Source: Chloroflexota bacterium
GTDB lineage: Bacteria; Chloroflexota; UBA11872
Assembly: GCA_026707285.1 (NCBI GenBank)
Contig: JAPOXD010000023.1
Location: forward strand, 124,001-188,000
Direction: 5' to 3'
Length of the DNA stretch: 64,000 bases
Positions within the stretch are counted from its first letter, which is position 1, and every line of letters starts with the position of its first letter. The notes under the pieces are model-generated. The model searched no databases and had not been told where the DNA came from. It saw only the letters and a program-made list of their open reading frames with translations. Shown here piece by piece: positions 668-51,004 of the stretch. The translations under genes were made by a program, and so were the position numbers.

Positions 668-713
668 GCGGCACCCCCGGCGGGATTCGAACCCACGACC
701 GTCGGCTTAGAAG
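668..713 (-). repeat. Left attachment-site repeat: 3' part of tRNA-Arg(TCT)
   Basis: These 46 bases match 49319-49364, the anticodon loop through acceptor end of the intact tRNA-Arg on the minus strand. Homology stops inside the anticodon loop. To the right, the sequence changes to the conserved trailer of the HTH module instead of the tRNA 5' half. This is the expected distal attachment site of an element that recombines in the 3' half of the tRNA. Confidence 0.8.
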
Positions 714-18512: not shown

Positions 18513-19598
18513 GTGAACGTATATCCGAGCTCGGACGCTATTCAGCTCAAGTGGTGGTATTGGTTAAATTCAGTCAAGGGGCTGGGACCAGCCTACACGC
18601 GAACTCTGTTGGATGCGTTCGGCAGCCCTGTGCATATATATGAGGCCACCAAGGGAGAGTTGGAGCAGGCGATCACGCTGCCTGAAAGGACCTGGACTGC
18701 CCTTGAGAAGTCCAAAGCGTCTCTCCCCCGCTTTGCGTCAATTGCGGAACGTCAATCCAAGATCGCCGATGCGATGGGTGCCCGCATCCTGACGCTTCAC
18801 AGTCCCGATTATCCGGAGTTCTTGCGCTGCATACCCAAGCAGGCCCCTCCTGTTATCAATGTCCAGGGAGACCTCGACTTGGTTCGGCCGCGTTCAGTAG
18901 CCATAGTGGGAACGCGTTCCCCTAGTGACGAAGCAGTTGAAAGAGTGCGTTCACTTTCGGCATACCTTTGCGAGAACGGATCCCCGGTGGTCGCCGGCAT
19001 GGCGCGGGGCGTCGACTCCGCCGCTCACCGAGGCGCTCTTGACTCGGATGGCATGACTATTGGAGTCTTGGGGTCAGGGTTGGATCGCATCTATCCACCC
19101 GAGAATGCTCCGCTCTATGTTGAGACTAGACAGCGCGGCCTGCTAATCAGTCAATTCCCATTCGGATCCGCGCCAAGTCCGGCGAAACTGCGGCAGCGAA
19201 ACAAGCTGATAGTTGCGCTTTCAGAGGTCGTCGTCATAGCGGAGTCGGACGTGCAGGGTGGCGCAATGATCGCGGCCCGCTCCGCCCTAGAGCAGGACAG
19301 GAGTTTATTCGCTCTACAATGGCCTAATATGGAAATACCGTCACGAGCTGGCACTCAACGCCTTTTGGAGAGCAACTTGGCGCGTCCGGTTGACCGAGAG
19401 GACATGGACGCCCTCTTCAACACCCCTCCGTCCCGAGCTTCCGGCGTGACCGTCACCAAAGCATGGGAGGCGGCGTTTCCTAGGTCTCGCAGCACACGCA
19501 GTTCGGCAAACTCACGTCAGCGGCAATCTCGAAAGGAGATTTCAAAGGGCAGGTCAATCAAGTCGAAGAGCCAAGCTCCAGCGCGACATCGCCCATAG
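18513..19598 (+). CDS. DprA/Smf-like Rossmann protein (ShosA-like candidate)
   Basis: The product has 361 residues from GTG 18513. An N-terminal helix-hairpin region (LNSVKGLGPAYTRTLLDAFG) is followed by the DprA Rossmann core: VAIVGTRSPSDEA near 130, AGMARGVDSAAHRGAL, IGVLGSGLDRIYPPEN and LIVALSEVVVIAESDVQGGA. The C-terminal 60 residues are basic and Ser-rich (RSRSTRSSANSRQRQSRKEI) rather than the usual winged helix. Housekeeping DprA loads RecA on single-stranded DNA during transformation. Here it opens a three-gene operon with a HAD phosphatase and a phosphoribosyltransferase. In the ShosTA defence system a DprA-domain protein acts as antitoxin to a phosphoribosyltransferase toxin, so an antitoxin or sensor role is favoured by context. 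Confidence 0.82.
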   Translation: MNVYPSSDAIQLKWWYWLNSVKGLGPAYTRTLLDAFGSPVHIYEATKGELEQAITLPERTWTALEKSKASLPRFASIAERQSKIADAMGARILTLHSPDYPEFLRCIPKQAPPVINVQGDLDLVRPRSVAIVGTRSPSDEAVERVRSLSAYLCENGSPVVAGMARGVDSAAHRGALDSDGMTIGVLGSGLDRIYPPENAPLYVETRQRGLLISQFPFGSAPSPAKLRQRNKLIVALSEVVVIAESDVQGGAMIAARSALEQDRSLFALQWPNMEIPSRAGTQRLLESNLARPVDREDMDALFNTPPSRASGVTVTKAWEAAFPRSRSTRSSANSRQRQSRKEISKGRSIKSKSQAPARHRP

Positions 19599-19606
19599 CC
19601 CTTCAA

Positions 19607-20263
19607 TTGAGTCAACGGCTGGGTGTGATGCGTAAAGCCATCATCTGGGATCTCGATGGCGTCCTGGTGGATAGCTTGGGGCTTCGGCTTGCGGGGTTGA
19701 GTAATGCAGCATCAGGAGCCAAGGCACCGCACGAGAGAGACCTTCGGCGATGGCTCTGTCATGGGCCAAGAACTGCACTGAGAAACATCCCAGGCGCCAA
19801 CACTTCACTCCGGGACTTCGAGCGGTTCTGTCGAAGCGTCGCCTCCCGGTATCTCACGAAGTTTGCTGGTGTCGGTCAGACCCTCGAATCGTTGGACCAA
19901 CTTGGGGTAAAGCAGGGACTCGTCACATCAAGGACTACTGCCGACACCGAACGTTGGTTGAATCTGTGCCGAGTCCCAACAGTATTTGAGGCTCGCATCA
20001 CGTACTCCGATCGTCTTCGTCCGAAGCCAGATCCAGCGAGTCTCGTCGCTGCTGCAGACAGGCTGCAGGTCACAACAGAGGAGTCTGCCTATATAGGTGA
20101 CACCATTGAGGACGGCATCGCATGCGAACGTGCGGGGATGGCATTCCTCCTTGCCGGCTGGGGAACCCCTGACGCCGACGAGGTGCTTGCAGCCGTAACG
20201 CCCGACGGAGTCTTGGCAAGCCCATCCGACGTCTTAACCTGGGTGCAAGGAGGGCAGCGGTGA
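19607..20263 (+). CDS. HAD-superfamily phosphatase within the DprA-PRTase operon
   Basis: The product has 218 residues from TTG 19607, or about 211 from ATG 19628, where the fold begins. Motif I is IIWDLDGVLVDS with both catalytic Asp; motif II Thr/Ser is in GLVTSRT; motif III Lys is in RLRPKPDPAS; motif IV is AYIGDTIEDGIAC. The helical cap between motifs I and II is of the phosphoglycolate phosphatase type. It starts 8 bp after the DprA-like gene and overlaps the phosphoribosyltransferase gene by GTGA, so all three are co-translated. It may act on a phosphoribosylated product of the third gene (inference). Confidence 0.85.
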   Translation: MSQRLGVMRKAIIWDLDGVLVDSLGLRLAGLSNAASGAKAPHERDLRRWLCHGPRTALRNIPGANTSLRDFERFCRSVASRYLTKFAGVGQTLESLDQLGVKQGLVTSRTTADTERWLNLCRVPTVFEARITYSDRLRPKPDPASLVAAADRLQVTTEESAYIGDTIEDGIACERAGMAFLLAGWGTPDADEVLAAVTPDGVLASPSDVLTWVQGGQR

Positions 20264-21198
20264 TTCGCGTCAGCCCCGATCTACTGATCGAACTGGGATG
20301 CGAGGCAGCGTCTAGCGACAAGTATGGGGATGCGTTGGGATTCATAGGTCAAATCAACACTCCGGATGCGATGAGTCTCAAGGGGGAGTGGTCCTACCAA
20401 TACGGCAAACAACTGGTCAGCAGCGGCAAATATGGTGATGCCAGGGAGTTTTTCGCGGTCGCCGTCCAACACCATAGCCGGCCCCCCGTTCGCACTCTGG
20501 CCCAAAAGCGCAACGAGCTGGTCAATAGGATTCTCAATGGACAAACCAAACCGGTCGTCGACATGACAGATCAGTTTGAAACCGTGAGAATCGCTCAAGC
20601 CATGGCTCTGCCGCACGAGACTTTCGCGCCACTGATCGAAGTCACCGGATGCCCGGCAGCCTATCGCTCTGGGTATGACCCCAAGAGATCTGACCCTCTA
20701 AGTATGCTGATCCGCACCGTCAAACAAGAGTCGCGCGACCCCGTAGTCACCGAAGAACGCGAGAGGGCAATTGGGCAGGTAGGAGATTTTCTTGCAGCTT
20801 ACGCCCACGCCAGCACGCCGCTTCTGCGTGATGCAGACCTGCTAGTGCCGGTTCCTTCCGACTTGGAGCGTTTAGCAAGCAGGGGATACTCCATACCCCT
20901 GATACTCGCGGCTAGAGTGGCAACAAGATGCGCCGTTCCGTTGTACACCAACTTGATTGAAACGACGGGGCCTCGGGAAGACTTACGAAGGCTCCCGAGT
21001 TGGGCACGCGCAGGGGCTGTCGAGGACGCTTATGGCGGAACTGGCAAGGCCACGATGCTGGACGGGCTCAGTGTCATTGTGGTCGACGACGTGTTGACCA
21101 CCGGAGCGACCCTCCGTGAAGTGGCCTCGGTATTGCACGACTGCGGGTGTCGTAGAGTCTCGGCCCTGGTCCTGGCTCACACTGAGTGGGGTGGCTGA
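20260..21198 (+). CDS. Phosphoribosyltransferase (ComF-like; ShosT-like toxin candidate)
   Basis: The product has 312 residues from GTG 20260, overlapping the HAD stop. The C-terminal third is a type I phosphoribosyltransferase: LLVPVPSDLERLASRGYS, a conserved ComF-type stretch, then the PRPP loop VIVVDDVLTTGATLREVA with two adjacent Asp. The first 170 residues are not ComF and have no recognised domain (helical repeats around 15-90 such as YGDALGFI and YGDAREFF). ComF proteins belong to DNA uptake, but no other competence gene is near. Pairing with a DprA-like protein matches ShosTA, in which the phosphoribosyltransferase is toxic without its partner. Confidence 0.82.
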   Translation: MIRVSPDLLIELGCEAASSDKYGDALGFIGQINTPDAMSLKGEWSYQYGKQLVSSGKYGDAREFFAVAVQHHSRPPVRTLAQKRNELVNRILNGQTKPVVDMTDQFETVRIAQAMALPHETFAPLIEVTGCPAAYRSGYDPKRSDPLSMLIRTVKQESRDPVVTEERERAIGQVGDFLAAYAHASTPLLRDADLLVPVPSDLERLASRGYSIPLILAARVATRCAVPLYTNLIETTGPREDLRRLPSWARAGAVEDAYGGTGKATMLDGLSVIVVDDVLTTGATLREVASVLHDCGCRRVSALVLAHTEWGG

Positions 21199-24281: not shown

Positions 24282-27200
24282 GTGTCTAAGAGCAACGGAC
24301 GCCCCGCGATCCGATGCCTCTCACTTGACCTTGAAGTCGGCGTCCGAGACTCCCGCATCCACGCCTTCGCCGGTGTACGTTCCGACACCCGGCGGACCCT
24401 AATCGGCCCTAAGCGCACTGCCTTGGCCCGAGCACTGGTCCAGCTGGACCGCCTTGCCGATGGCGCTGACTTCATTCTCGGCCACAACCTGATCGCTTTC
24501 GATCTGCCCCACCTGCAAGCTGCGAGTCCCGGTTTGCGGCTGCTACGACTTCCCGCGGTGGACACGCTTCGACTCAATCCCTTGGCCTTTCCCCGCAACC
24601 CCTATCACCATCTTGTCAAGCACTATCAGGACGGAGGGCTCAGGCGCGGACGCATCAACGACCCTGAACTGGATTCCAGACTTGCCTTGGAGGTCTTCGA
24701 CGATCAGCTAAAGGCCCTGCGGGATTCACCGTCGGACTTGCTGACAGCCTGGCACTGGCTCACCACGTGTGATGGGGGCGAAGGATTCGGCCGGGTGTTC
24801 GCTTCGTTGAGGAACTCGCCGAGGCCGTCCGACGCTGAGGCGTTGGCGGCAATCCAGAGACGTTTGGCTGACTCATCCTGCCAGACGTGCGCTCGAGAGG
24901 TCATGGCGGACGCAACACAGAACGGCTGGGCACTGGCCTATGCGCTGTCGTGGCTGTCGGTGTCTGGAGGGAGCTCCGTCATGCCTCCTTGGGTGCGGCA
25001 TCAGTTTCCCGAGGCAGGTCGGCTGGTTAAACGATTGCGCGACAGCGCCTGCGCCGACCCCACGTGTGGTTGGTGCCGCGAGCGACACGATGCCCGCAAC
25101 GAGCTCACCCGGTGGTTCGGCTTTCCCGACTTCCGCGCCGAGCCATCGGACGAGAATGGACAGCCGATGCAGCGGTCAATCGTCGAGGCGGTCATGGCCC
25201 GGAAGCATGTGCTGGGCATCCTGCCAACCGGCGCGGGCAAGTCGCTCTGCTACCAGCTGCCGGCACTCTCCCGCTACGACAAGACCGGGGCGCTGACGGT
25301 TGTGATCTCGCCATTGGTCGCCCTCATGGCTGATCAAGTGGCGGGTCTCGAGGCTACGGGCATCGGCTCCTGCGTCACGATCAACGGGCTCCTTTCCATG
25401 CCTGAGCGAGCCGATGCGCTGGACCGGATACGACTTGGAGATGCCGGCATCGTCCTTGCGGCTCCTGAGCAGCTTCGTAGCGTCGCGTTTCGTCGCGCCC
25501 TTGACCAACGTGAGATCGGTGGGTGGGTGCTGGATGAGGCGCACTGCCTCTCGAAATGGGGGCACGACTTCCGGCCCGACTACCGGTACGTTGGGCGCTT
25601 CATCCGCGAGAAAGCGAGGGATGACCCGGTTCCGCCGGTCTTGTGCCTCACCGCGACCGCCAAGCCCGATGTGAAGACCGACATTGTCGAGTACTTCCAA
25701 GCGGAGCTGGACATCGACTTGACAGTTTTCGACGGCGGTGCTCGACGCGAGAATCTGGAGTTCGTCGTGGTGCCGACGAGCAGCGGGGCGAAGTTCGCCA
25801 ATGTCCACCAGATCCTCGACGCCGATCTGCCGGCGGATGATCCTGGCGGGTCAATCGTCTATTGCGCCACACGGCGGCACGCCGAAGAGCTAGCCGCGTT
25901 CCTCCAGGCCAAAGGCGTAACAGCCGACCACTTCCATTCGGGCCTGCCCCCGGAGACCAAGAAGAACGTCCAGGAGCGCTTCATCCGTGGCGATCTGCGA
26001 GCCATCGTCGCCACCAATGCCTTCGGCATGGGCATCGACAAGCCTGACGTTCGCCTGGTCATTCACGCCGATATCCCCGGCTCCCTCGAGAACTATCTGC
26101 AAGAGGCAGGCCGCGCTGGAAGGGACCAGCAACGGGCGCGCTGTGTATTGCTCTATACCCAAGACGATGTGGAGCGCCAGTTCGGGATGTCGGCCCGTTC
26201 CCGGCTGACGCGGCGTGAGATTCATGGTGTATTGCGAGCACTGCGAAACCTGGACCGTAAGAGGCGCCTGGATGGCCAAGTTGAGGCCACTGCCGGCGAG
26301 ATTCTCGGCGAGGACGAAGAGAAGGCCTTCGAGCGAGACTCCAACACCGACGACTCCCGGGTACGGACGGCCGTCGCCTGGCTGGAGGAGGCGGTGTTGC
26401 TCACCCGGGAGGAGAACCGGGTGCAGGTGTTTCCATCCTCGCTACGGGTCAACTCGGTAGAGGAGGCACGGGCCAGGCTCGAACGGTCCGACATCAGGAG
26501 CGGCTATCGCCGCCAACTACTGACCATCGCGGAGACGTTGTTCGAGGCGGATGCGGACGACGGAATCTCCACAGACGAGCTCATGGCGGCAACGGGTCTG
26601 ACCTCCACCGGGGTCAGGGGCGCACTGTACGACCTAGAGCGATTGGGGGTCGCCAGCAACGACACGGCGCTGACGGCCTTTGTTCACACGGGTGTGATGC
26701 GTGCCTCACAGCGACGCTTCACGCAGGCGGCGGCTCTGGAGATCGACCTGGTGGCCCACCTGCGCGAGACAGCGCCAGATCTGAGCATCGGCGATTCATC
26801 GACGCTCCATCTCCGCGTCGCCACCCAACGGCTCAAGGACGAGGGGCATTCGCACGCTCTACCGGAACACCTGTGGCGCATTGTGCAGAGCATCGCCGCC
26901 GACGGGCGTGGGGAGGGCGGCGGTGGCGGCAGCTTCGGCGTACGCCGGTGGGACGCCGAGACCGTACAGGTGACGCTGCACCGCGAGTGGGGCGTGTTGG
27001 AGAGGATTGCCGAGCTACGTCGCGCCGCGGCACGGCGCCTGCTCGACCATCTACTCGCCACCCTCCCGCAAGGAATCCGAGGCACCGACCTTCTAGCGGA
27101 GACGACCCTTGGCAAGCTGCTGGCGGCAGTCCAGTCCGATCTCGTGCTGAGAAGCGTAGTCAAGGACCCGGCAAAGCTGATGGAGCGTGCCTTGCTGTGG

Positions 27201-29405
27201 TTGCACGAGCAGGAGGTCATTCGCCTGAACAAAGGCCTGGCGGTGTTCCGCCCAGCCATGACCATCCACCTGAAGCCTGAATCACGCGGCTTCGCACAGG
27301 CCGATTTCGGAGCCCTCAAGCTCCATTACGACGAGCAGGTGTTGCAGATCCACGTGATGGCGGAATACGCGCGGCAAGGCCTTGCTTCGATGGCTGATGC
27401 CCTGCGCCTAGCGATGGACTACTTTGCCCTTAGCGAAGAGGAATTCCTGCATCGCTGGTTACCGAATCGGGAGACGGAGACTTCCCGGCAGACCACGCCA
27501 GAATCGTGGCGGGCTGTCGTTGAATCCCTCAACAACCCCATCCAACGCCGCATCGTGGCCGACGATCGGGAGCAGACCAATGTCCTAGTTCTTGCCGGTC
27601 CAGGCTCGGGCAAGACGCGGGTGTTAGTGCACCGCATTGCCTACCTGTTGCGGGTGAGGCGAGAGAATCCTCGCGGCATCCTCGCGCTGGCCTACAACCG
27701 GCACGCCGCGGTGGAGATCCGCCGCCGTCTGGCGGACCTCATTGGCGACGACGCTCGGGGCGTTACGGTGTTCACCTGCCACGCCCTGGCCATGCGGTTG
27801 GTCGGGGCCAGTTTCTCGGGACGGGCGAAGCGTCTGAACGAGGAAGACTTCCAGGACGTCCTGCGACAGGCGACGGCCCTGCTGCGCGGGGAAGGCCTGC
27901 CACCGGACGAGGCGAACGAGAATCGGGCGCGTTTGCTGGCGGGTTTCCGCTGGATCCTCGTCGACGAGTACCAGGACATCGGCTTGGATCAGTACGAGCT
28001 GATCTCCGCCCTGGCGGGCAGAACCCTCGCCGAGGAGGACGACAAGCTCAGCCTCTTCGCCGTGGGCGACGATGACCAGAACATTTACGCCTTCAACGGC
28101 TCGTCGGTGGAGTTCATCCGGCGCTTCGAAGCCGACTACCGGGCCAAGCCCGCGTTCCTGACCGACAACTATCGTTCAACTAGCCATGTCGTCGCGGCTG
28201 CCAACGCAGTGATCGGACCGGCCCGGCATCGGATGAAGACCGGGCACCCCATCGCCATCAACCGAGGCCGAGCCAAGGAACCATCGGGCGGTGCCTGGGC
28301 CGAGCTAGACCCAGTGGCTCGAGGAAGAGTTCAGATTCTGCCGGTTGGCGACAATCGCATCGCTCAGGCGCAGGCGGTCGTTGCAGAGCTCGAGCGGTTA
28401 TCCAGGCTCACTCCCGATTGGAATTGGGCGACATGCGCGGTGGTGGCGCGGAACTGGAGCTACCTGGACCCGGTGCGCAGCCTCTGCGAGCTTCAAGGCA
28501 TCCCCGTTGAGATGGCGAACGAGGAGTTCTCGGGTTTCTGGCACTTGCGGGAGACCGGAGCACTCCGAGATTGGCTCTATGGGCGAGATTCCCAATGGGT
28601 GCGGAGCGGAGACCTGGCCCACTGGCTGCGTACGCAACCGCGAGGGCCGTGGGTCAAGCTCCTCGAGGAAGCCGTCGCCGACTTTGGACTGGAGACCGGC
28701 GGCGCCGAAACGTCGCTGGATTCCTTCATTGAATGGTTGGCCGAGTGGGGCCAAGAGTTTCGTCGTCGGCAGGGAGGATTGCTGCTGACGACCGCCCACC
28801 GCGCCAAGGGCCTGGAGTTCGACCACGTGGTCGTGCTGGATGGCGCGTGGGACCGCATCGGCCGCGGAGAGGATCGAGACGCCCCCCGGCGGTTGTACTA
28901 CGTAGCGATGACTCGGGCACGTCAGACGCTTACCCTCATGCGCTTTGCCGGACAACATCCTTTCCTGGATGGCTTCCAGAAGAACTCCTCGGTGCTACAC
29001 CGCCCGGCGTCGGTCGGACTCCCGGTCCCGTCGAGCGAGCTCAACCGCACCTATCGGCGGCTCAGCCTAGGGGATGTCTTTCTAAGCTTTGCCGGGTACA
29101 GGATCCCTGGCAACCCAGTGCACGAGGCCATAGCCGCGCTCTCTCCTGGCGACATTCTCCAGGTTCGAGAGGGGTCGAATCGCTGGGAACTCCTGGACAG
29201 CAAAGGCACCGTCGTCGGACAGCTTGCTCGGAGTTTCACGCCCCCCGCTGACATGCACTGCGCGTTCGCCACCGTCTTGGCCATCGCCACTTGGGACCGT
29301 GAGCGCTCTGATCCCCAGTACCGCGAAGGGCTTCTAAGTGATAGCTGGGAGGTAGCGGTGCCGGAATTGGTGTTTGAGCCGGAGCCCCCCAATGTGCCGG
29401 AATAG
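24282..29405 (+). CDS. Exonuclease-RecQ-UvrD fusion helicase
   Basis: The product is a single protein of 1707 residues from GTG 24282 (AAGGAG 11 bases upstream). Residues 10-140 look like a DnaQ-type 3'-5' exonuclease: LSLDLEVG (Asp16, Glu18), [13 protein letters not shown] (Asp74) and INDPELDSR (Asp131). Residues 290-650 are a RecQ helicase: [12 protein letters not shown] near 312, [17 protein letters not shown] near 416 and [13 protein letters not shown] middle region of 400 residues holds winged-helix-like segments. From about 1085 comes a UvrD/Rep helicase: [20 protein letters not shown] near 1226, [27 protein letters not shown] near 1505 and [12 protein letters not shown]. All ATPase motifs look intact. 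Two 3'-5' helicase engines and a nuclease in one chain suggest processing of DNA ends, perhaps against invading DNA given the neighbours. Confidence 0.93.
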
Positions 29406-29627: not shown

Positions 29628-32600
29628 CTAGTCCGGGAGAACTAGGCTAAAGCTAAGGTTTCCTTCTGGTGCTTGACCTGCGTGTCTAAATGCGCCCGAT
29701 ATCTTCAAATGCCCTTGAAACTCTGATCGAGCCCCGCCGACAATCCACTTTTCTCCAAAAACGACCCAGCAGAGGACCAGCCCGTTTTGCCTTAGGTACC
29801 GCTCTAGCAGCTCCCTATCCATGAGTAGGGTAGTTGGGCCATCATCATGCGCCGTCGGATCATAGATGGCCAGCCTACCTGATTTGTCCACAAAATCCGA
29901 GGCCCTCCCCGACCAATTCAGATCAAGGTCGTCAAGGAGTACATGATGAGGCAAGAGCAGTGTGTAGTGCTCGTCGACAGAGCAATCGAACACGCCTGAT
30001 TCTGCAGAATAGGAGACTGTCGAAGTCCGTACGTCGACCGGACGCCTCTCTCCTTCCGATTTTGCCCAACCCTCAGTGCTATTGTGGTTCGGGAATTGAC
30101 GACGAAATGCCGGAGACCAACCATATTCTCCGAAGAACATATAGTAGAGATATACTGTCGGGGATTCTGGTAGCGCGTCCAACTGATTTTCATTCCTCTT
30201 GGCCCAGCTCACAAATGAGTCAACATCACTAGAGTGGACGAAATAGGCCTCCCATCGCAGCATGAGCTCTCTCCGCTCAATCTTGAAGGGATCGACATCT
30301 ACAGGATGTGGCTGCCTCCAGACTGCGTTACCGCACAAGTTGACCCATTGGCTTCCGTCGTTGGGACGAACGACTTGAAGCAGATCTTCAACTCTCGGAA
30401 TATCTGTCTCCAATGCTAACCACTCCTGATGGCTCACCTCATCACGCCAAGCAGCATATTCAGCGTCTCCCCACCACGCAGCCTTGTGCGGTCCCCAAGA
30501 CGTTCCGCCGGGAGTGGAACTTAGAGTTGAGGACGGATCGATATCGCGGACATGGAGTTGCCAAGGTCCCTCGTACTTGCCACCCTCGTCGCCAAAAAAA
30601 GACTGCTGGTACTGGTAGTGGTCCGAAAGGTGAGCGAGTATCTCATGGTAGGCTATCCACTGGTACTTCTTTCCCATTCGCTCAGGCTTGTTCGCCGATC
30701 TCCCAGGATCTCCGATGAAGAACCGGTCGAACTCACCAAATCGATCAATTGTCCAACCTAGATCAAATACGCGCCAGAATACATATCGCTGGATCGCGCG
30801 TACATCAAATCGCGGAGGGCCACTGCTCCTAGCATGATCGATTGCTTCCATCTCAGACCTCTGGTCGTCGGTAAGCATCGACATCAGTTCTTGCCGTGAG
30901 GCCTCGATCCGCTCTTCGTGCCGATCCATATCTCTACTGAGTTCCTGCTGTTCAGCATCGCCGTCGGACTGTGTATCTCCCATCATCGCAAAAATTGGCG
31001 ACGGTTCGTTTTCAATGCTTCTGAGACTCGCATACGCCGCTCTTTCGGCATCGCCAAGCTTGTCCAATAGGTCCTCTATCCGCTCTTCCGGCGAGACCCA
31101 CTGGGCTTCGTCGAGTCGAAGTGAGAGCCAGCAACTATTAGATTCACTGCCGATCACGTACCGGGAGAAATCGCTAAGCAGATCACCTAATACCGAATGA
31201 CGAATTCGGTTCCTCGACCACTCCAAATCGCCATCTACCCATGCACCTTGATTCCAGTGTGGAGTCAATTGCTCAATTATCTCTTCACCTGGTATGTCTG
31301 GCCAGATGCTTCTATACGGCGGCCGTATGAGTGAGTCGTTGACAGGGATTTCTGCCCCAAGATAGATTGCACGCTCGACAACTCCACGGGCGTAATCACG
31401 GAGGAGAATATGCGGCGGGCAGTCGCCAGAGGCAAAGACCCGATCGTATACCAACAATGCCAGCTTGCCCACCGCATCCGCGTCGTGACTTCGCATTGCC
31501 ACACCATAAGCTACAGCATGCACTCGTTCGGAGACATATGGATCGTCAACGTCGGCGAAACGGTTCACTAGTCGCCCAGCCGATTCGAACCGCCCAGTGA
31601 GGAGAACAACCAAAGCCTTCGTCGCCCTATCGCGCAAGAATCGGTTGGGTGTCGTAAGCATCCAAGAAAGCGTGGTTGCAGCTAGGTCTACAACCTCATC
31701 CTCAATGTCTTCATCTCCTGCCGAGCTCAATGCCCAATCTATGAGGCGGTCCACAGGACTCTGGTTCTGCCACGCTCTGTGCAGATAGGTGCTCCACCAT
31801 GAATCCCGATCAGGCATTGCATCCTCGCGCAATCGGCGGTCAAGAGTCTCTGCGTTGAATGGATGACCGGAAATGGTTGAGAGAGACACCATCGTGTCCA
31901 AGAAATCTTCCAATAGATCGTCATCCCCCAACAAGTCGTCCAAGATCACATCAAAGTCTTTCGAGAAGGCGTCATGCTTACGCCAGATGATGCTTTGCAG
32001 AAAAGCATAGGTGAACATGGGTCGTTTCCGCACGGATGGAGCCACACTGACCAACTCTTGCCCGATACGCTCAGGCACCTGAATACATAGCGCCTCAATG
32101 ATCCCATACCGTATATACCGCTCCTCTTGGCTAAGGAGAGCCATTCCTCCATTCTCTGAGAATGCAATGCTGGGATCATCTCGGTCGAGATGAGTATTGA
32201 GCAGGTGGTCAGAAATGATGTGGTCCGCGAAGCGATCATAGACGATCGTCACTACCTCGTCCGTGAGAACGCCGCTACTCGGGTCAATATCTTCCGCAAG
32301 TATGCCTTCAGCTACAAGGGCTGCATAGAGCGACTCATCGTAATTCCGGCCCGGCAGCAGATTATCTACGGCGGCCTGAGCCTCGGAGCGACGCAGGTGT
32401 GGCGTTCCACACTCCGCAAACCGCTCAGCAAGCCTCTCAAGGGATTGACGTACAAGGTTATTCTTCGGGTCATAGTTGAGATACTCTGGCTTCCGAAGAC
32501 GCTCGTGAATCGCATTGAGGTAGAGGTCGAATACCGCACTGACACCATGGAATCCTCTCGGAAGCTGGCGCTCTCCTTTGCCTTGCAGACCTTCACAGAT

Positions 32601-34184
32601 CGCCTTTAGAAAAAGCGGATTGCTGAATTCAGGCTGCAAGATTGGAGTTGACGGAGCTTGGAGTCCATAATGTGCAAAGAAAATACGGGTGGCGTCGAAC
32701 TCAAGCCCCGCGAATCCCTGGTGAGTAACGACGGTAGCCCTGTCCCTCACATTCTTCGGGATGATTGTCTCCTCGTACGACGAGCGGACGGAAAGGACCA
32801 CCCCAATCCACGGAGATTCTTGGATCCTCGCCAAGAATGAGGGCAGATGAGCCGGCCAAATCCTCCTGCCATTACCTTCGTTCAAGGCATCAATCATCAC
32901 CATTGCGCGACACGCCGACGCCTGGGCGGCGGATTCCAGCGCACCGACAAACTCTTCCGCGCTGCTGTGGGACAAGTCCAGTTGCTGTAACAGCTGTACC
33001 CAAGGATCGTCCGCGCTGAGGAATCGTTTGCCCACCAGGACTAGAGTAGGCAGCTGATCTTCAACACGCCTCTTAGCGAAATCACAGATCAGGTGAGTTT
33101 TGCCTGTACCACCATCGCCCTTCAAAAGCAACAGCTGATTGTTCGCCAAAGAATCGACATGAGTACAAACATCAATTACTCGACCTAAAGCAATTTGAAG
33201 CTGCTGTACGTAGGCAAGCATGTTTTTGAGGGGCTCCACAAAATAGCCCGATGTATCTGGGATGTCTTCAGGCCGCGCACTCTTGTACGTTCGTAGTTGC
33301 GAGATTTTCTCAAGAACCTGCGTTCCTTCATTACACGCCTTATCTGCCGCATTCACTATCTCTGGGAGTCGCATATGGCCAGCAGGACATGCTTCCAACT
33401 GCGCCAAGGCTTCCAGCACCTTGCTCGTTGCGCTTGCTAGACAATCAAGCTCTAGGTCTTGAGCCTGTTGGTCCGCGGATCTCTGGACAAACACTAAGCT
33501 GTCATGAGCTCTACGAATTCCTAGTGAAAGAGACTTGACTTCTTCGAAGGAAGAAGATGACCTACTGAATCGCTTCAAGTCCTGAGCGATGGGTAAGTCG
33601 ACATGGACCTCCGGAGTGTATCTGGGTCCGACGGCGCTCAGAGACTCATTGAGATGCCGACTAAACCAGTCCTGACTAAACTCATGCTGTCCAAACCAGA
33701 AGAAACGGCGCCCAGAGTGCTCCTCCCGGGACAGCCTATCAAGCAATTCCGAGGAGCCCCACCGCACATACTCCACCTCAATATCGCGTTCCTTCGCCTG
33801 TCTTTCCCACTTGCATAGATGGTCGTCCCATCGATCCATTTCCGAGTTTCGGTTGGAAATGCGGGCATCCGATAGATTGCGAGGGACGCAAACATAATAG
33901 CGCACTAAGCGGGGATGTTTGTTGAGTGCGGTTTCGATTGAGACGTCAAGTTGCTGCCATTGGATGCTCGTAAGAGGCGAGGTAAAATACTTCGCCTGCC
34001 AACCCCACTCATCCCCGTTCGGGAGAACACAGTAGCATTCGACACCTGCATCGGGAGTGCCGGTCGATATGAACTTCGCATCTTTGGGAGACTCAACACG
34101 CGCCAGTTGTACACACAGCTCCTCAAACCCGCCGGATTGCGAGCCATTCCATGATCGGATCGATTTCCAGTCAACGTTGAACAC
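29628..34184 (-). CDS. Avs-like STAND NTPase with N-terminal Mrr-type nuclease
   Basis: The product has 1518 residues from GTG 34184 (GGGA 7 bases upstream). Residues 15-70 form a restriction-endonuclease-like core: GFEELCVQLA, then GTPDAGVE and WGWQAKYF, giving a D...QxK active site (about Asp45, Gln63, Lys65). A linker of about 250 residues leads to a P-loop NTPase: LLLLKGDGGTGKTHLICDFA near 354 and MVMIDALNEG near 428. The remaining 1000 residues have no named domain and are helical, as in the target-sensing C-terminus of antiviral STAND (Avs) proteins. Those sense phage terminase or portal proteins and then activate the nuclease to kill the infected cell. The order and length fit the Avs plan. 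GC content is lower than in the core genes, consistent with transfer. Confidence 0.83.
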   Translation of the reverse strand: MFNVDWKSIRSWNGSQSGGFEELCVQLARVESPKDAKFISTGTPDAGVECYCVLPNGDEWGWQAKYFTSPLTSIQWQQLDVSIETALNKHPRLVRYYVCVPRNLSDARISNRNSEMDRWDDHLCKWERQAKERDIEVEYVRWGSSELLDRLSREEHSGRRFFWFGQHEFSQDWFSRHLNESLSAVGPRYTPEVHVDLPIAQDLKRFSRSSSSFEEVKSLSLGIRRAHDSLVFVQRSADQQAQDLELDCLASATSKVLEALAQLEACPAGHMRLPEIVNAADKACNEGTQVLEKISQLRTYKSARPEDIPDTSGYFVEPLKNMLAYVQQLQIALGRVIDVCTHVDSLANNQLLLLKGDGGTGKTHLICDFAKRRVEDQLPTLVLVGKRFLSADDPWVQLLQQLDLSHSSAEEFVGALESAAQASACRAMVMIDALNEGNGRRIWPAHLPSFLARIQESPWIGVVLSVRSSYEETIIPKNVRDRATVVTHQGFAGLEFDATRIFFAHYGLQAPSTPILQPEFSNPLFLKAICEGLQGKGERQLPRGFHGVSAVFDLYLNAIHERLRKPEYLNYDPKNNLVRQSLERLAERFAECGTPHLRRSEAQAAVDNLLPGRNYDESLYAALVAEGILAEDIDPSSGVLTDEVVTIVYDRFADHIISDHLLNTHLDRDDPSIAFSENGGMALLSQEERYIRYGIIEALCIQVPERIGQELVSVAPSVRKRPMFTYAFLQSIIWRKHDAFSKDFDVILDDLLGDDDLLEDFLDTMVSLSTISGHPFNAETLDRRLREDAMPDRDSWWSTYLHRAWQNQSPVDRLIDWALSSAGDEDIEDEVVDLAATTLSWMLTTPNRFLRDRATKALVVLLTGRFESAGRLVNRFADVDDPYVSERVHAVAYGVAMRSHDADAVGKLALLVYDRVFASGDCPPHILLRDYARGVVERAIYLGAEIPVNDSLIRPPYRSIWPDIPGEEIIEQLTPHWNQGAWVDGDLEWSRNRIRHSVLGDLLSDFSRYVIGSESNSCWLSLRLDEAQWVSPEERIEDLLDKLGDAERAAYASLRSIENEPSPIFAMMGDTQSDGDAEQQELSRDMDRHEERIEASRQELMSMLTDDQRSEMEAIDHARSSGPPRFDVRAIQRYVFWRVFDLGWTIDRFGEFDRFFIGDPGRSANKPERMGKKYQWIAYHEILAHLSDHYQYQQSFFGDEGGKYEGPWQLHVRDIDPSSTLSSTPGGTSWGPHKAAWWGDAEYAAWRDEVSHQEWLALETDIPRVEDLLQVVRPNDGSQWVNLCGNAVWRQPHPVDVDPFKIERRELMLRWEAYFVHSSDVDSFVSWAKRNENQLDALPESPTVYLYYMFFGEYGWSPAFRRQFPNHNSTEGWAKSEGERRPVDVRTSTVSYSAESGVFDCSVDEHYTLLLPHHVLLDDLDLNWSGRASDFVDKSGRLAIYDPTAHDDGPTTLLMDRELLERYLRQNGLVLCWVVFGEKWIVGGARSEFQGHLKISGAFRHAGQAPEGNLSFSLVLPD

Positions 34185-36842: not shown

Positions 36843-36950
36843 AAATGCGCGGAGGCGCGCCGTATTTGGCCGATGCTCAACCTGTTCCGGTACCGGAGCC
36901 GTTTTCAGGCCGTTGCCCCCTTCCATGGGCAACGGCACGGACGTTCTACG
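36843..36950 (-). repeat. Conserved non-coding trailer of the HTH module, copy 3 (diverged)
   Basis: Similar to 714-822, with shared blocks CAACCTGTT, CAGGCCGTTGCCCC and TTCTACGTTATTTCG, but more diverged at the tRNA side. It joins the tRNA-like fragment to the stop of the HTH gene. Confidence 0.55.
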
Positions 36951-37412
36951 TTATTTCGAGGGAGATTCCGCCTGTGCCAGTGCCAGAAACTCGCGCGTCA
37001 CAGCCTCGACCGCTGGTCGTCGATAGGCGGCCCAGAGATGTTGGCGACTACGCAGACCGAGACGAGCTGCGATGGCGGCCATCGGCTGGCCCTCGCAGTA
37101 CAACTGAAGAGCCAGGACTTGCCGCGGCGTCAAGATCATCGACGCCCGCTCGGTGGCCTGCTGGAGAAGTGCCCGTGCCGCATGCACGTCGGCGAAGGCG
37201 CTTCGTCGAAAGCGCTGGCGTGCCAGGCGCTTTACTCCAGGAAGGCCTACCAAGGCCGAATCGAGCAGGCGATAGCCGTCCGCTCGATGGCGCAAGGCGT
37301 CGTCAACCCACCGGTAGTACGCCGCGAATGACCGGCGACCGCGGCGCGGGACTCGGTGGTGTGCATATCCCCGCTCCAAGATTGATGGGGCGGAAGCTTC
37401 CGGCATCCGCAA
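36951..37412 (-). CDS. Small HTH protein of the tRNA-linked repeat module, copy 3
   Basis: The product has 153 residues and is intact. It has the same layout as copy 1: variable first 25 residues, then RRSFAAYYRWVDDALRHRAD, FRRSAFADVHAARALLQQAT and the HTH segment LTPRQVLALQLYCEGQPMAA then IAARLGLRSRQHLWAAYRR. Differences from copy 1 are scattered conservative changes (IL/VL, D/Q, V/A), as expected if the protein is under selection. Its position between a tRNA-like fragment and the ApeA-like gene repeats the layout at the island's left end. The function is unknown; see copy 1. Confidence 0.72.
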   Translation of the reverse strand: MRMPEASAPSILERGYAHHRVPRRGRRSFAAYYRWVDDALRHRADGYRLLDSALVGLPGVKRLARQRFRRSAFADVHAARALLQQATERASMILTPRQVLALQLYCEGQPMAAIAARLGLRSRQHLWAAYRRPAVEAVTREFLALAQAESPSK

Positions 37413-39363: not shown

Positions 39364-40077
39364 TTAGACAAACACCGGTAGCCGGCTCTCGAGAGTCTCG
39401 AGCACCGATTTCCGCTGCTCAGGGGCGTGTGTGTATTCCAGTAGAGGTGTATGGCGTGCATCCTCGGTCGAACTGCCCTCGTCGACAAGAACGATGACCG
39501 AGTCCAGCCAGCTCCGCAGCTCTTCTCTGCAGTCTTGGTCGATCAGAGTCGTCCCGACTTGCCATTCGCGAATGATGTCGTCAAGCGCTGCGCTAGGCGG
39601 CTGCTCTCCCTCCACGTCCTCTGCGTCCGCGTGGCTCTTGTCGACATGCGCCGCCAAACGCGCCAAGTCTTTCCGAATCTCTTCATTGGACACCACGACC
39701 TCGGGTCCACCCTTGATGTCATGCGTGAAGCTATCGTCAAGATATCGAGTACAGCAGTATTCGGTCGCAGCGAGGCCGTCCGCAAGCTCGGTGAGGTCGT
39801 CGGTTTCAAGCCTGAAGCGTGCAGAAGCGAAGCGGATCTCGCTGGGATCACGCTTCTGCGATTGGATACCGGCGTTGTAGTGCTTGCGAGGGTAATCCCG
39901 CAATGGGTCAAGCTCCTTCACACCAGCAGGGAGGTTGATCTGCTGAAGCGCTTCAAGCACAGCTGTCTTGCCGGCTTCGTTAGGACCCAGCAGAATCGTC
40001 TTGGCCTGCTCCACCTCAAACCACCCCGTGTCACGGACACAACGATAGCCACGCACCCGAACGTGAGTCAGTTTCAT
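39364..40077 (-). pseudogene. OLD-like/AAA ATPase, truncated by a TAA codon
   Basis: The remaining 237 residues start MKLTHVRVRGYRCVRDTGWF with the Walker A loop LLGPNEAGKTAVLEALQ near residue 31, typical of ABC-like ATPases of the OLD/RecF group (as in GajA). The frame ends at TAA 39366-39364 after LPVFV. Beyond the stop, the same frame continues sensibly with FNNYFGVCPNLHLRHF for about 20 codons and then ends. Related proteins commonly have Tyr after LPVF-I/V, so TAT to TAA is likely. The signature motif, Walker B and any Toprim nuclease domain are gone. It lies 65 bp downstream of the type ISP gene on the same strand. Confidence 0.7.
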
Positions 40078-40142: not shown

Positions 40143-43100
40143 TTAGCCCTCTTCAAGAGGTGGTAGCGCGCTCACAATGGATACTGTTTCGACGCTCACG
40201 GTCGTAATGCGCTTCACTAGGTCGATGATATAGCGGGGTTCTCGAATCTCGGCTGCCCAGTCATTTGGGTCGTTGACGATGCCACTTGCCTTGTCAGACG
40301 TTATCCGATAGCGATCAAGCAGCCATTCCAGCGCTGACCTAGGGCCGACAACGTAATCGTGGGCTTCGTCGGGTATGCCCACAAGCGTGATCCAGTCGTT
40401 GTAGACAATAACTGACCGATCTGGACTTCTTGATGCTCCGCCCCAACGCATCTTCTGCACCCGAAAACGTTCCGAGCCCTCGGGAGCGCCCGATGAAAGA
40501 CGTTCCTCCAGCGAGTATGGCACTGCATCCTCATAGCCAATGTGTAGGTCCAAGAGCTGCTGTCCGGCCTCCGAGAACGAGGCAAAGGCCGCCGCCGTCG
40601 ACACTTCGGGAATTCGAGGCAGCATGCGAGCAAGATCGCTGCCGTATCGTTCCCGATAGTCGGAAGAGTGCAAGATTCCATATATATAGGAAAAAATGTC
40701 ATCCTTCGTCACCCACTGCCCGTATCTCGTACGGTAGGCCTCAAGCGCCTGGTCTGAGACATTGTCTTCGCGATGTGGCTCGGCCGGGAGTAATTCTCCC
40801 TGCCCACTATCGGTCGAAGAAACCCAGATATAGCGTGGAAGGGTCTGGCAAGCTCGACCCGCACCTGCATTTGCTTTGTTTTCGGGGACGGTGTCGACAG
40901 CCAGGATACCGGGACTGCTCCTGGGCGTAGGCAACCCCCGTTCCACAAGAATTGTCGGGTTGCGCGTTTCCGGGGTAGGAAAAACCTTGGGCAGCTGATA
41001 GACCGAGTTATTCAAGATTCGGTCCATGTAGTAGTGCTGGCGGAAAAATGGACGATAGACTGCCGACCGAAACCCGTCATAATGAACTTCGGCCAACTGA
41101 TTCCTCTTGGCTCTTTGCTCAGCGCTGCCATCCCACTTGAACCTACCTTCGTCGCGGGCTACAGAATTGGCGCCTGCACTTAGGGCCCTCACCTGATCGT
41201 TGTAGAACGCAACCTGATCCTCGATCAATGCGCGCAACTTCACATAGGAGGAATTGAAGACCCACGCGTCCCGGCTCGTAATGGCCCCCAAAGATGAATG
41301 TTTGAACAATGGTGCGATGGACGGACTGGACTTCTCGCTCTGAATTATTGTCACAGGACGCAGTGTCATGTAGTGATCATTCCGCTGATTGATCCAATCT
41401 CCCTGTCTGTTTGGAACAATATTGGTCCACTCAATCTCGCCGAACTCCGCCCGGCTGACAGTCTCAAGCTTTCGTTCGCGAGTGAGGAAGTCTCCAATGT
41501 CGCAATATTCGATGGTCGCCGGTTGCGTGACTGCTTCAGGCCGCTTCACAAGAAGCAGCACGGCAACGCCGGCGCGGCTTCCTTGTTCGAATACACCTCC
41601 ACCCTCCCGCTTTCGAGTTTCCCCTGATGTGCGAGCATTGCCACGTAAGTCATAGACGTAAGCAAAGTGGAATTCCCTTTCGATCACTTTCCGGAAGCCG
41701 TCAAAGCTCTTGCCATCGAGGAAGCCACTATTGGTGACGAAACCGATGATACCGCCGTCACCTTCTTGCACTCGGTCTGAAGCCCACCGAATCGCTCTCA
41801 CGTACGAGTCGTAAAGAGGGTTCTTCAAGCCCTTAGTTTCTGATTGAGCAATGTAGCTGCGTGAGATCTTTTCGTCTATCGTCGGATAGGCTTGGTTCGC
41901 GTTATCGTCCTCGTGACTTGCTTGACCCCTAGACCAGGGCGGATTGCTGATGATGACGCGTATGTCCAGGGCAAGTTGGCGCTCAATTCTGTCGCTATTT
42001 CGCGGAAAGAACGTTGTGTCCGCACGGTCGCTCGCCTCGGATGCCTGGAACGTGTCGGTGAGTACGATGCCATCGAATGGCCGATACTCTCCAGCGAGCT
42101 CGACGTTGGCAGTCTCTATGTTGACGGCAGCGATGTAGTAAGCCAGCAACATGATTTCGTTCGCGTGCAACTCAGTTGCGTACTTGTGGAGTAATGTACT
42201 CCGGTCCAAAAGTCCGCTCTGTAGTAGCCGAGTAATGAACGTTCCAGTTCCGACGAACGGGTCGAGAATGTGCACACCCTCATCGCTCAGTGCAGCGTCG
42301 AACTCACGGCGCAACAGCTCCTGAACGCTGCGGACGATGAAATCCACAATCTCGACGGGCGTATAGACGATGCCCAACGATTCGGCGACCTTAGGATAGG
42401 CAACCTTGAAGAATCGCTCATAAAGTTCAACTATTACGCGCTGCTTTCCATGGGCGTTGTCTATTCCCTCCACCCGGCGGCGCACACTTGCGTAGAACTC
42501 TTCGAGCTCAGCCGTCTCGGCCTCAAGTCCGAATCCCTCAAGTTCGGCGATCATGCGTTGCATTACCCGAGACACAGGGTTGCGCTCTGCAAATTCATGC
42601 CCGCCGAACAGAGCGTCGAATACCGGCTTCGTAACCAGGTGTTGCGACAGCATTGCCGCCGCATGATCCCGAGAAACGGAGTCATTGAGGTTTCGCCGGA
42701 GAGCTGCAACGAACTCGTCGAATCGTGTAGCCACAGGGCTGTCAGGCAGGTCAATCAGAGCCCGGATACGCTCGTCGTGGCGGCGGGCGATGTCCGTTAC
42801 GGAATCAGCCCACCTCTCCCAGTAGCGACGCTCTCCGCAACGCTTCACGATCTGCGCGACAATGGCTGAGCGGAACTCGCCCAAGTCGAATTCGAGCAAG
42901 CCTTGGGTGATCTGCGCGTTCGCCTCATCACTCACATCTACGCTATCGCCATCATCCCCGTTCGTTCCCACACCGATTACTGAAATAGGCCCGTCGGCAC
43001 TCTTGTTGAGGTCGAGCTTGTTGATGTAGGCGTCGAAGCGCTCATCGTGAGAGCGCAGCGCCTGCAAGACCTGCCAGACATGGCTATAGGCGTCGTTACG

Positions 43101-44885
43101 ATCCAAGGCACTCTCGGGATCATCTCCCGACGGCACGACCACCGGCAGGATGACGTATCCATAACGCTTACCCTCGGCCTTGCGCATCACCCGTCCGACA
43201 GCCTGCACGACATCGATCTGAGACTTGCGAGGCTGCAAGAACAAGACTGCGTCGAGGGCCGGTACGTCGATTCCCTCGGTGAGACAACGGGCGTTGGAAA
43301 GAACATGACAGTTCCGGTCCTCAGCCGTTTCATCGCGGAGCCAAGCCAGAAGACGGTCGCGCTCGAGTACTCCGCTCTTCCCGTCAACATGTTTACCTTC
43401 GATCGCAAGCCTCCGCACGGCTAGCGCTGCCTCGTCCTGCTCGCGCTCGACCAAGCTCACGAAGTGCTGGGAGTATCTGATCGTGTTGGAGAACGCGACG
43501 GCGCGGCGCATCGGTTCAGGGTCGTCCTTGAATTCCGAGCCCTCCGGATCAACTTTGGCAAGCCCATTCAAACATCCGATGACGCGTCCCACATCAGCTA
43601 GCGCCTCGCCTTCGGCGAGCAACCTTTGGTGGTCACGGGCGATTTGCTTTTCACTCATCGCGAGAATCGTGACCTTATAGTCGCTCAGCAGATCCGCTTC
43701 GACCGCCTCCGCGAAGCTGAGCCGGTGAAACTCTGGGCCGTACTGCGTCACGTTGTCCATCGAGGCGACGAAGATGTCATCTTCCTTTGCTCGAAGCTGG
43801 GCCGACTCTGCATAAACGCGGGGCGTGGCGGTCATATAGAGCCGTTTGGCCGCATGCACCGCTTCGTCATCGTGAACAAGGAGAAACGATGAACCTTCAC
43901 CGGCGCGGTGGGCACCAGTTGTGCGATGCGCCTCGTCACATACCACCAGATCGAAAGCCGGAAGGCCAAAATCCTGGGCATCGGCGATCACCTGCATCGA
44001 CTGGTATGTGGTGAATACCACCGTCAAGAACCCGGGCGCGTCTGGCTTGGCAGTGTCGAGCAAGACCTTCGCATCGGTAGTCGCAGGAATCGGCATGTCA
44101 TAGATGCGGGTGCTATCACCATCGCCCATCCCGACTTTCGTGTCCGAGCAGACCGCAAAGACTCGAAGAGTCTCCTCGGCGTCAGCCCCCCACTCACGAA
44201 TCGACTGCGCCAGAAGTGAGAGTGACGGGGCAGCGAAGAGAACGCGCCCGCCCGAACCTGCCACTCGCTCCGCTATTCGCAACGCCGTCAAGGTCTTTCC
44301 GGTGCCGCAAGCCATGACCAGCTTGCCGCGGTCACTCGTCTCGAATCCTGAAATCGCGTCGTTGACAGCACGGGTTTGGTGAGGCCGCAGTTGCTTGCGC
44401 GGTCGTATCGAAAGCGGGTCGAATTCGTCCTGTAGGAATGCGTCCCAATCGATGGCCATGCCATCGAGTCCCACCAAATCGACACGCTGGACCGGGGGAT
44501 CGATGCTGCTTAGAGCGCGCGCCGCGTTGTCACTCCATTCCGTCGCGGTCGTAAAGATGTAACGCTCAACATAGGGTTCCCCGGTTGGGCGCCGCTGAGA
44601 TTCAGAAAGAAATGAGTCGATGTGATGTTTGTCAATTCGGTCCTGGCACTTGCACTGGATGGCTGCTAAGCCGCCATCGCGACGCCTCGCAACGATGTCA
44701 ATGCCTATGTCAACGCCATCGCGCCCCATCCATTGACTCCACGGCCAGACCTCGGCGAAGTGCGATCGATACAGGGGATCGGTGCGAAGCACCCTTGTCA
44801 CGAGAGGCTCAAAGGCTCGCCCTCGGTCTCGTTCGTCGGGATACCGTCGGCACAACACTTGGTAAACATCACCGAAGCCGCTCAT
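40143..44885 (-). CDS. Type ISP restriction-modification enzyme (single chain)
   Basis: The product has 1580 residues from ATG 44885 (GGGAG about 6 bases upstream). Domain order: Mrr-type nuclease (GRDGVDIGIDIVARRRDGG then AIQCKC; Asp63, Gln77, Lys79), SF2 helicase/translocase (MACGTGKTLTALRIA at 191-205, CDEAHRTTG near 315, QAVGRVMRKAEG), N6-adenine methyltransferase of the gamma class (DPFVGTGTFITRLL near 873, SNPPWSRG near 979) and a C-terminal target-recognition region of about 450 residues. Length and order match LlaGI/LlaBIII. These enzymes methylate one strand of an asymmetric site and cut when two translocating enzymes collide head-on. All motifs look intact, so it should be active. 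The recognition sequence cannot be predicted by eye. Confidence 0.93.
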   Translation of the reverse strand: MSGFGDVYQVLCRRYPDERDRGRAFEPLVTRVLRTDPLYRSHFAEVWPWSQWMGRDGVDIGIDIVARRRDGGLAAIQCKCQDRIDKHHIDSFLSESQRRPTGEPYVERYIFTTATEWSDNAARALSSIDPPVQRVDLVGLDGMAIDWDAFLQDEFDPLSIRPRKQLRPHQTRAVNDAISGFETSDRGKLVMACGTGKTLTALRIAERVAGSGGRVLFAAPSLSLLAQSIREWGADAEETLRVFAVCSDTKVGMGDGDSTRIYDMPIPATTDAKVLLDTAKPDAPGFLTVVFTTYQSMQVIADAQDFGLPAFDLVVCDEAHRTTGAHRAGEGSSFLLVHDDEAVHAAKRLYMTATPRVYAESAQLRAKEDDIFVASMDNVTQYGPEFHRLSFAEAVEADLLSDYKVTILAMSEKQIARDHQRLLAEGEALADVGRVIGCLNGLAKVDPEGSEFKDDPEPMRRAVAFSNTIRYSQHFVSLVEREQDEAALAVRRLAIEGKHVDGKSGVLERDRLLAWLRDETAEDRNCHVLSNARCLTEGIDVPALDAVLFLQPRKSQIDVVQAVGRVMRKAEGKRYGYVILPVVVPSGDDPESALDRNDAYSHVWQVLQALRSHDERFDAYINKLDLNKSADGPISVIGVGTNGDDGDSVDVSDEANAQITQGLLEFDLGEFRSAIVAQIVKRCGERRYWERWADSVTDIARRHDERIRALIDLPDSPVATRFDEFVAALRRNLNDSVSRDHAAAMLSQHLVTKPVFDALFGGHEFAERNPVSRVMQRMIAELEGFGLEAETAELEEFYASVRRRVEGIDNAHGKQRVIVELYERFFKVAYPKVAESLGIVYTPVEIVDFIVRSVQELLRREFDAALSDEGVHILDPFVGTGTFITRLLQSGLLDRSTLLHKYATELHANEIMLLAYYIAAVNIETANVELAGEYRPFDGIVLTDTFQASEASDRADTTFFPRNSDRIERQLALDIRVIISNPPWSRGQASHEDDNANQAYPTIDEKISRSYIAQSETKGLKNPLYDSYVRAIRWASDRVQEGDGGIIGFVTNSGFLDGKSFDGFRKVIEREFHFAYVYDLRGNARTSGETRKREGGGVFEQGSRAGVAVLLLVKRPEAVTQPATIEYCDIGDFLTRERKLETVSRAEFGEIEWTNIVPNRQGDWINQRNDHYMTLRPVTIIQSEKSSPSIAPLFKHSSLGAITSRDAWVFNSSYVKLRALIEDQVAFYNDQVRALSAGANSVARDEGRFKWDGSAEQRAKRNQLAEVHYDGFRSAVYRPFFRQHYYMDRILNNSVYQLPKVFPTPETRNPTILVERGLPTPRSSPGILAVDTVPENKANAGAGRACQTLPRYIWVSSTDSGQGELLPAEPHREDNVSDQALEAYRTRYGQWVTKDDIFSYIYGILHSSDYRERYGSDLARMLPRIPEVSTAAAFASFSEAGQQLLDLHIGYEDAVPYSLEERLSSGAPEGSERFRVQKMRWGGASRSPDRSVIVYNDWITLVGIPDEAHDYVVGPRSALEWLLDRYRITSDKASGIVNDPNDWAAEIREPRYIIDLVKRITTVSVETVSIVSALPPLEEG

Positions 44886-48160: not shown

Positions 48161-49309
48161 CTAGAGATTGTCGAGCGGGCTGCTCCGCCGGTGCGCCTCC
48201 ACCAGGTCACCCGTGGCCAGCGTCACGTAGCGGTTGGTGGTCGCCAGGGAGGCGTGCCCCAGCAGCCGCTGCAGCGTCAGCGGGTTTCCGCCGTTGCGCA
48301 GGAAGTGCACCGCGAAGGTGTGCCGCAGCAGGTGCGCATAGAGTCGCGGGATGCCGGTGCGGCGCCGCAGCCGGCGCACGATGTGGCTGACCTGCGCCGT
48401 ATCCAGCGCCCGTCCCGAGGCCGTCACGAACAGCCGGTCGCTGGATTGGCCCAGGCCGGGTGGGCGGTGATGCAGATAGCGCCGCAGTAGGCTTAGGGCG
48501 CGGCGCCCCGCCACCACCACGCGGGACTTCTCCCCCTTGCCCACCACCCGCAACTCGCCGATGTGGAGATTGACGTCCCCGTGGCGCAGGGCCACGAGTT
48601 CGCCGGTCCGCATGCCGGTGTCGACCAGCAGCCCCACGATCGCCGCCGTGCGCCGGTCGTAGGTCTTGCGCGGATCGAACACCGCCAGCAGCCGTTCCAC
48701 CTCGTCGGCGGTGAGCGGTTGGATCTCGGCCTGCGGCACCTTGGGGAGTCGCAGGCGCTCCAGCCGGTGCTCCGGCGTGAAGCCCTCGTCCCACAGCCAG
48801 CGGGCGAAGGCGCGCAGGGCGCGCGCGTGCTGGTTGAGGGTGGCCGGAGCCAGCTTCCCGCCGCACCGCTCCGGCACGTCCACGAAGCGCGGTTGCTGCT
48901 GCAGGTGTACCAGGTAGCCCCGGGCCGTGTGGCGGCTGAGCGCGTCGCCCGTGGGCGCGTGCCCCAGCTGTGCCTCGAGGAACCGCGTGAAGCGGTCCAG
49001 GATGCGCGTGTACATCACGATGGTGCCGCGGCTGCGGCGCGAGGCCTGGAGGTGCAGCAGGAAGGACTCGGCCAGGTCGGCCAGGGGTGGGCTGGCGTGC
49101 GGCGGCCGCGGCGTGTGCATGGGTCCCAGGATGGGGATCCGCAAGTCGATCGGGCGAGCCGCCGTCCGATCCATGTCCGGTCCGGGTCCGCCGCCGGTCG
49201 GGTCGAGGCCGAATGAAGGCCGTTGATCACTTTGCATGGGACGCACCGTCTGGGCACGGCCTGCGCGCCCGGTCCGAGGGCCGTCTAACAGGTTTGGCGC
49301 GCGCGTCAC
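48161..49309 (-). CDS. Tyrosine recombinase (integrase) of the island
   Basis: Up to 382 residues; the conserved part begins about residue 70, so the start may be the ATG near residue 64 (MHTPRPPHASPP). An N-terminal SAM-like DNA-binding domain (LAESFLLHLQASRRSRGTIV) is followed by the catalytic domain: Arg in LLVDTGMRTGELVALRH, Lys in VVGKGEKSRVV, His-x-x-Arg in YAHLLRHTFAVHFLRNGGN, His in LLGHASLATTNRY and the Tyr nucleophile at the end of that block. All are present. The gene ends 10 bp from the right attachment repeat, in the tRNA-Arg gene, as expected for the enzyme that integrated the island. XerC/D-type use cannot be excluded from sequence. Confidence 0.9.
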   Translation of the reverse strand: MTRAPNLLDGPRTGRAGRAQTVRPMQSDQRPSFGLDPTGGGPGPDMDRTAARPIDLRIPILGPMHTPRPPHASPPLADLAESFLLHLQASRRSRGTIVMYTRILDRFTRFLEAQLGHAPTGDALSRHTARGYLVHLQQQPRFVDVPERCGGKLAPATLNQHARALRAFARWLWDEGFTPEHRLERLRLPKVPQAEIQPLTADEVERLLAVFDPRKTYDRRTAAIVGLLVDTGMRTGELVALRHGDVNLHIGELRVVGKGEKSRVVVAGRRALSLLRRYLHHRPPGLGQSSDRLFVTASGRALDTAQVSHIVRRLRRRTGIPRLYAHLLRHTFAVHFLRNGGNPLTLQRLLGHASLATTNRYVTLATGDLVEAHRRSSPLDNL

Positions 49310-49318: not shown

Positions 49319-49364
49319 GCGGCACCCCCGGCGGGATTCGAACCCACGACCGTCGGCTTAGAAG
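49319..49364 (-). repeat. Right attachment-site repeat within tRNA-Arg(TCT)
   Basis: Identical over 46 bases to 668-713. It spans the 3' part of the tRNA gene from the anticodon loop to 4 bases past the discriminator. Confidence 0.8.
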
Positions 49365-50823: not shown

Positions 50824-50919
50824 CATCCCGACTCGCCTGGGCGGGTTCGACCCGCCGGCGCACGGGCTTAGCGAGGCTCCCCCGGGAAAGGTCTGAACAA
50901 GGCCTTGGACTTATCCCAT

Positions 50920-50957: not shown

Positions 50958-51004
50958 AACGGGGCCGATGACCGCGGTGACACCCTGCTCTTTTGGAGGC
51001 TCCC

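Follow-up and report, generated by a model that had tools for sequence, protein, structure and literature searches.

Avs2 is the closest described system to the protein encoded at 29628-34184 of the window, the window being the whole 64,000 nucleotide stretch of Chloroflexota DNA that was analysed. In passages of two reports (PMC12724215; PMC12931631), E. coli Avs2 is described as recognising its target via the C-terminal sensor, the large terminase subunit is given as the trigger of Avs1-3 and the portal as that of Avs4, and a Klebsiella Avs2 is described as binding terminase and also Ksap1. Avs2 (NF041813; PADLOC PDLC02161-02166; PDB 9o4e) resembles the window protein across the full NTPase and sensor and carries the same motifs, the identity to the nearest relatives found being ~46-48%. 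The solved Avs2, 9o4e, gave no sequence alignment to the N-terminal 168 residues of the window protein, and its effector may differ. The Avs2 of Rhodothermus marinus plasmid pRMAR01 (WP_144295528.1) is 46% identical over 100%, nuclease included, but differs in being plasmid-borne and from Rhodothermota.

The likeness to Avs4 (8dgf, portal-bound) lies in the N-terminal Mrr-like nuclease and is weak by sequence and best by fold, whereas the sensor and NTPase of Avs4 are unmatched by the window protein, which as a whole falls far below the Avs4 cut-off. Avs3 (8dgc, terminase-bound) supplied the only significant fold matches of the window sensor, but differs in giving no profile match at the sequence level and in the low global TM-score of the fold match.

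The avs2 gene and the architecture of its product

Inspection of the ORFs showed that the whole of avs2 is a single uninterrupted frame of 1518 residues. The product combines an N-terminal effector, a STAND NTPase with both Walker A and Walker B, and a C-terminal region of ~970 residues beginning near residue 545. The features of the gene are as follows.

29628..34184 (-), avs2 gene, uninterrupted 1518-aa ORF, start codon GTG; matches to NF041813, PADLOC PDLC02164 and PDB 9o4e_A
33633..34184 (-), N-terminal effector, residues 1-184, putative Mrr-like PD-(D/E)xK nuclease; PADLOC Avs2 profiles, weak Avs4 match and predicted fold
34038..34055 (-), PDAGVE (residues 44-49), catalytic D45/E49 motif; D45, G47 and E49 invariant in 13 sequences
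33984..34007 (-), WGWQAKYF (residues 60-67), catalytic Q63-x-K65 motif (QAK, 63-65); Q63 and K65 invariant in 13 sequences
33096..33119 (-), Walker A, GDGGTGKT (residues 356-363); kept in 14/14 relatives
32877..32903 (-), Walker B of STAND type, MVMIDALNE (residues 428-436); kept in all relatives
29628..32552 (-), C-terminal sensor region, residues 545-1518; Avs2-only profile match and predicted structure
30654..30683 (-), ERMGKKYQWI (residues 1168-1177), invariant Avs2 sensor motif in 13 aligned sensors; ERIGKKYQWI in PDB 9o4e

The Mrr-type nuclease, STAND NTPase and large C-terminal region named in the first-pass annotation were borne out by the 1518-aa ORF, with the motifs in place. The gene and this three-part plan are confirmed as real, far beyond chance, by the homologues, the kept motifs and profile scores of >1300 bits. 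The gene, its architecture, the family membership of the product, the intact catalytic and nucleotide-binding motifs and the place on an integrated island are directly established.

Assignment of the protein to Avs2

The whole protein scored 1306.8 bits against the NCBIfam Avs2 model NF041813, with residues 183-1507 aligned to positions 2-1316 of the 1317 in the model, and so passed the curated equivalog cut-off of 1000 bits. The PADLOC Avs2 profile PDLC02164 matched end-to-end at 1599 bits (residues 2-1513), nuclease included. The sole PDB sequence match of the whole protein was 9o4e_A (E=5e-191, residues 169-1504), which is named AVAST type 2 anti-phage system protein Avs2 in that database. 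Profiles of Avs1 and Avs3 gave no match in NCBIfam or PADLOC, with the whole protein up to E=0.1 or with the sensor alone up to E=10, and Pfam on the whole protein returned weak AAA matches below cut-off, with no convincing hit to the C-terminal part. The identification as an antiviral STAND protein made in the first-pass annotation was correct. On these profile matches the protein is assigned to Avs2 (AVAST type 2 antiviral STAND NTPase), as a new member of a known family and not a new class.

The sensor region

When the C-terminal 989 residues were searched alone, NCBIfam returned Avs2 only (961.5 bits, E=9e-289) and PADLOC returned its six Avs2 profiles only, the best at 1002 bits; neither library gave an Avs4 match for the sensor. 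The last 618 residues alone were still matched by Avs2, at 521.8 bits in NCBIfam and 537.6 bits in PADLOC, and by nothing else in either library up to E=10. The last 729 residues aligned to the solved Avs2 chain 9o4e_A with E=2.8e-93, and the sensor motifs R(M/I)GKKYQWI and RPPYxSIWP are common to the two proteins. Pfam gave no match above its cut-offs in the C-terminal region, and this absence of a suitable Pfam model explains why the sensor could not be named by a reader relying on familiar domains. An FGGY_C Pfam match at residues 1324-1373 (E=0.076, below cut-off) and a match to the armadillo-repeat structure 6sa8 (E=0.065) were rejected as chance or generic helical-repeat similarity.

The initial view of an Avs-like nuclease-STAND protein with an unrecognised sensor thus holds for the Avs protein with its Mrr-like nuclease but not for the sensor, for which comparison of the C-terminal region with Avs1-4 profiles gave a clear Avs2 match. 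These matches identify the region as a normal, recognisable Avs2 sensor and not a new class.

When residues 545-1518 were modelled with AlphaFold2, the resulting model (mean pLDDT 83) showed helical repeats in a long array that leads into a terminal part of mixed, beta-rich structure. Comparison of this model with the PDB by Foldseek gave two matches with E<0.001, both of them Avs3 chains of the terminase-bound structure 8dgc (E=6.7e-6, probability 1.0). The global TM-score was low, 0.25, which can arise from a bent superhelix, and the match alone is not strong evidence for the same ligand. PDB 9o4e was absent among the fold matches of the predicted models to the PDB. The predicted likeness to terminase-bound Avs3 is consistent with terminase sensing, without proving it.

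The effector nuclease

Four of the six Avs2 profiles in PADLOC extend over residues 1-184 with their N-terminal part, the best with 3e-66, and the combination of an Mrr-like nuclease with the NTPase and sensor of Avs2 is accordingly already known, being present in those profiles. In NCBIfam a weak match to the Avs4 nuclease (8e-7) extended over residues 12-160. The nuclease alone gave no match to the PDB by sequence, but a fold search did find matches: a model of residues 1-190 (pLDDT 86) was closest to the Avs4 chains of 8dgf (E=7e-6), with weaker matches to the Lamassu LmuA nuclease and to restriction-type folds. D45, G47, E49, Q63 and K65 were invariant in an alignment of 13 sequences, indicating that the catalytic residues are intact.

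The Avs2 of a Vibrio plasmid aligned to the window protein over the NTPase and sensor but not over the nuclease region (14% identity). The lack of this nuclease in the Vibrio protein points to an exchange of effectors within the Avs2 family. The window gene neatly illustrates that one type of effector is common to Avs2 and Avs4.

Homologues and distribution

Full-length homologues were found in 14 other loci with 29-48% identity. All 14 have the Walker motifs, and the nuclease motif is kept in all except the Vibrio copy. In one scan, 12 further homologues, again 29-48% identical to the window protein, came from seven phyla. Members of the family were recorded in Pseudomonadota, Verrucomicrobiota, Planctomycetota, Chloroflexota, Actinomycetota, Cyanobacteriota and Bacteroidota, as well as on the Rhodothermus plasmid, and 75 plasmid records matched, the best of them annotated avs2. 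Within the same class a match over the Avs2 cut-off was present in 4 of 41 genomes, one of which has two copies; the gene thus has the scattered distribution that mobile defence genes would be expected to show. A tree of the NTPase and sensor placed the window protein no more finely than inside a supported group of nine members, including Planctomycetota, Chloroflexota, Actinomycetota, Cyanobacteriota and others. The window gene adds one Avs2 to a widespread family.

A relative in the genus (L029, G005:C10:367697-368074) has a 1507-aa frame that the Avs2 model matches weakly (19.9 bits), in its NTPase part only; this may be a further large STAND-like protein, belonging to another class.

Proposed mechanism and alternative readings

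Taken jointly, an Avs2 with an Mrr-like PD-(D/E)xK effector, a terminase-type trigger, ATP-dependent assembly, nuclease activation and abortive infection is considered very probable. Late in infection the C-terminal helical-repeat sensor would bind a phage protein that is conserved, probably the large subunit of terminase, the motor that packages phage DNA, and ligand binding would lead to ATP binding by the STAND NTPase and the assembly of an oligomer. The oligomer would in turn activate the N-terminal nucleases, which would then cut phage and host DNA in an abortive infection. We infer from studied family members what the trigger is and that the protein oligomerises, cleaves DNA and kills the cell, and the effector behaviour is borrowed from Avs4. 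Nothing suggests a trigger of the window Avs2 beyond those known for Avs2, and no new question is raised about what Avs proteins detect.

It is improbable that the protein is an Avs2 by descent whose main trigger in this lineage is a phage protein other than terminase, comparable to Ksap1, the additional activator of a Klebsiella Avs2. Passages of the two reports do put Ksap1 on record as a second activator of Avs2 (PMC12931631; PMC12724215), and the outer C-terminal part of the window protein (residues 1011-1518) is among its less conserved regions, with 24-44% identity to relatives; however, moderate divergence across phyla is expected anyway, the sensor lies within the Avs2 family over its entire length and has the invariant motifs, and its predicted fold best matches terminase-bound Avs3. 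An Avs2 with an Avs4-type nuclease, in which the diverged outer C-terminus would sense a non-terminase protein, either instead of or besides terminase, is just as unlikely.

The probability that the protein founds a further Avs class, its sensor being novel, is very small: such a class would fit a C-terminal region that Pfam does not match above its cut-offs, but the sensor alone is Avs2 at 961-1002 bits in two libraries and matches PDB 9o4e, and the NCBIfam/PADLOC profile and PDB matches rule out a new sensor class. Membership of Avs4, as the nuclease match over residues 12-160 (E=8e-7) and the effector fold match to 8dgf might suggest, is equally hard to sustain. The whole protein scored 33.8 bits against NF041815, in the nuclease only, where the cut-off is 1500 bits, a result which rules out membership; the sensor has no Avs4 match, and the common effector would reflect only module exchange or shared nuclease ancestry. 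There is scarcely any likelihood of a non-defence, regulatory STAND protein. STAND proteins have many roles, and nothing further favours that reading, against which stand the intact nuclease, the curated Avs2 equivalog match and the restriction, Shos/Psyr-like and AbiE-like genes that are also on the integrated island.

The genomic island and its genes

The avs2 gene lies on an island of ~48.7 kb (668-49395) that is integrated at tRNA-Arg(tct) and has a 46-bp att repeat at either end.

668..713 (.), left att copy, repeating the 3' part of tRNA-Arg perfectly over 46 bp
49319..49364 (.), right att copy, overlapping tRNA-Arg (49321-49395)
48161..49309 (-), tyrosine integrase of the island; Phage_integrase PF00589, E=4e-36

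In two relatives in the genus the tRNA-Arg is uninterrupted and adjoins the right flank, the left-flank homologue is 1.2-2.3 kb away and there is no ~48.7 kb island. At third codon positions the GC fraction is 0.55 in avs2, compared with 0.8-0.9 in many genes to the right of the island.

Several other genes, defence-like ones among them, were observed on the island. The region 18513-21198 encodes a DprA-like protein (ShosA 188 bits, PsyrA 115 bits), a HAD hydrolase and a phosphoribosyltransferase (weak PsyrT/ShosT), a set that, apart from its additional HAD gene, is similar to ShosTA/PsyrTA toxin-antitoxin defence. Near this set, at 24282-29405, is a 1707-aa fusion of RecQ-like and UvrD-like helicases; full-length copies with 72-83% identity are found in eight other genomes of the class, and no single PADLOC family spans both halves. 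A 237-aa ORF at 39364-40077 is apparently a remnant, in which no more than the N-terminal ~80 residues of a GajA/PtuA/OLD-like ATPase are left. At 40143-44885 lies the gene of a Type ISP restriction-modification enzyme of 1580 aa, with Mrr_cat_2 nuclease, helicase, methylase and specificity domain, which has a 72% identical relative within the class. An AbiEii-like nucleotidyltransferase (PADLOC, 64 bits) is encoded at 45343-46254 and a replication-relaxation/MobC-like protein at 46268-47245. Two direct copies of ~470 bp (14959-15429 and 36902-37358), 80-84% identical, lie 22 kb apart inside the island. A dispersed repeat of ~50-80 bp at 50885-50965 has many copies in genomes of the genus.
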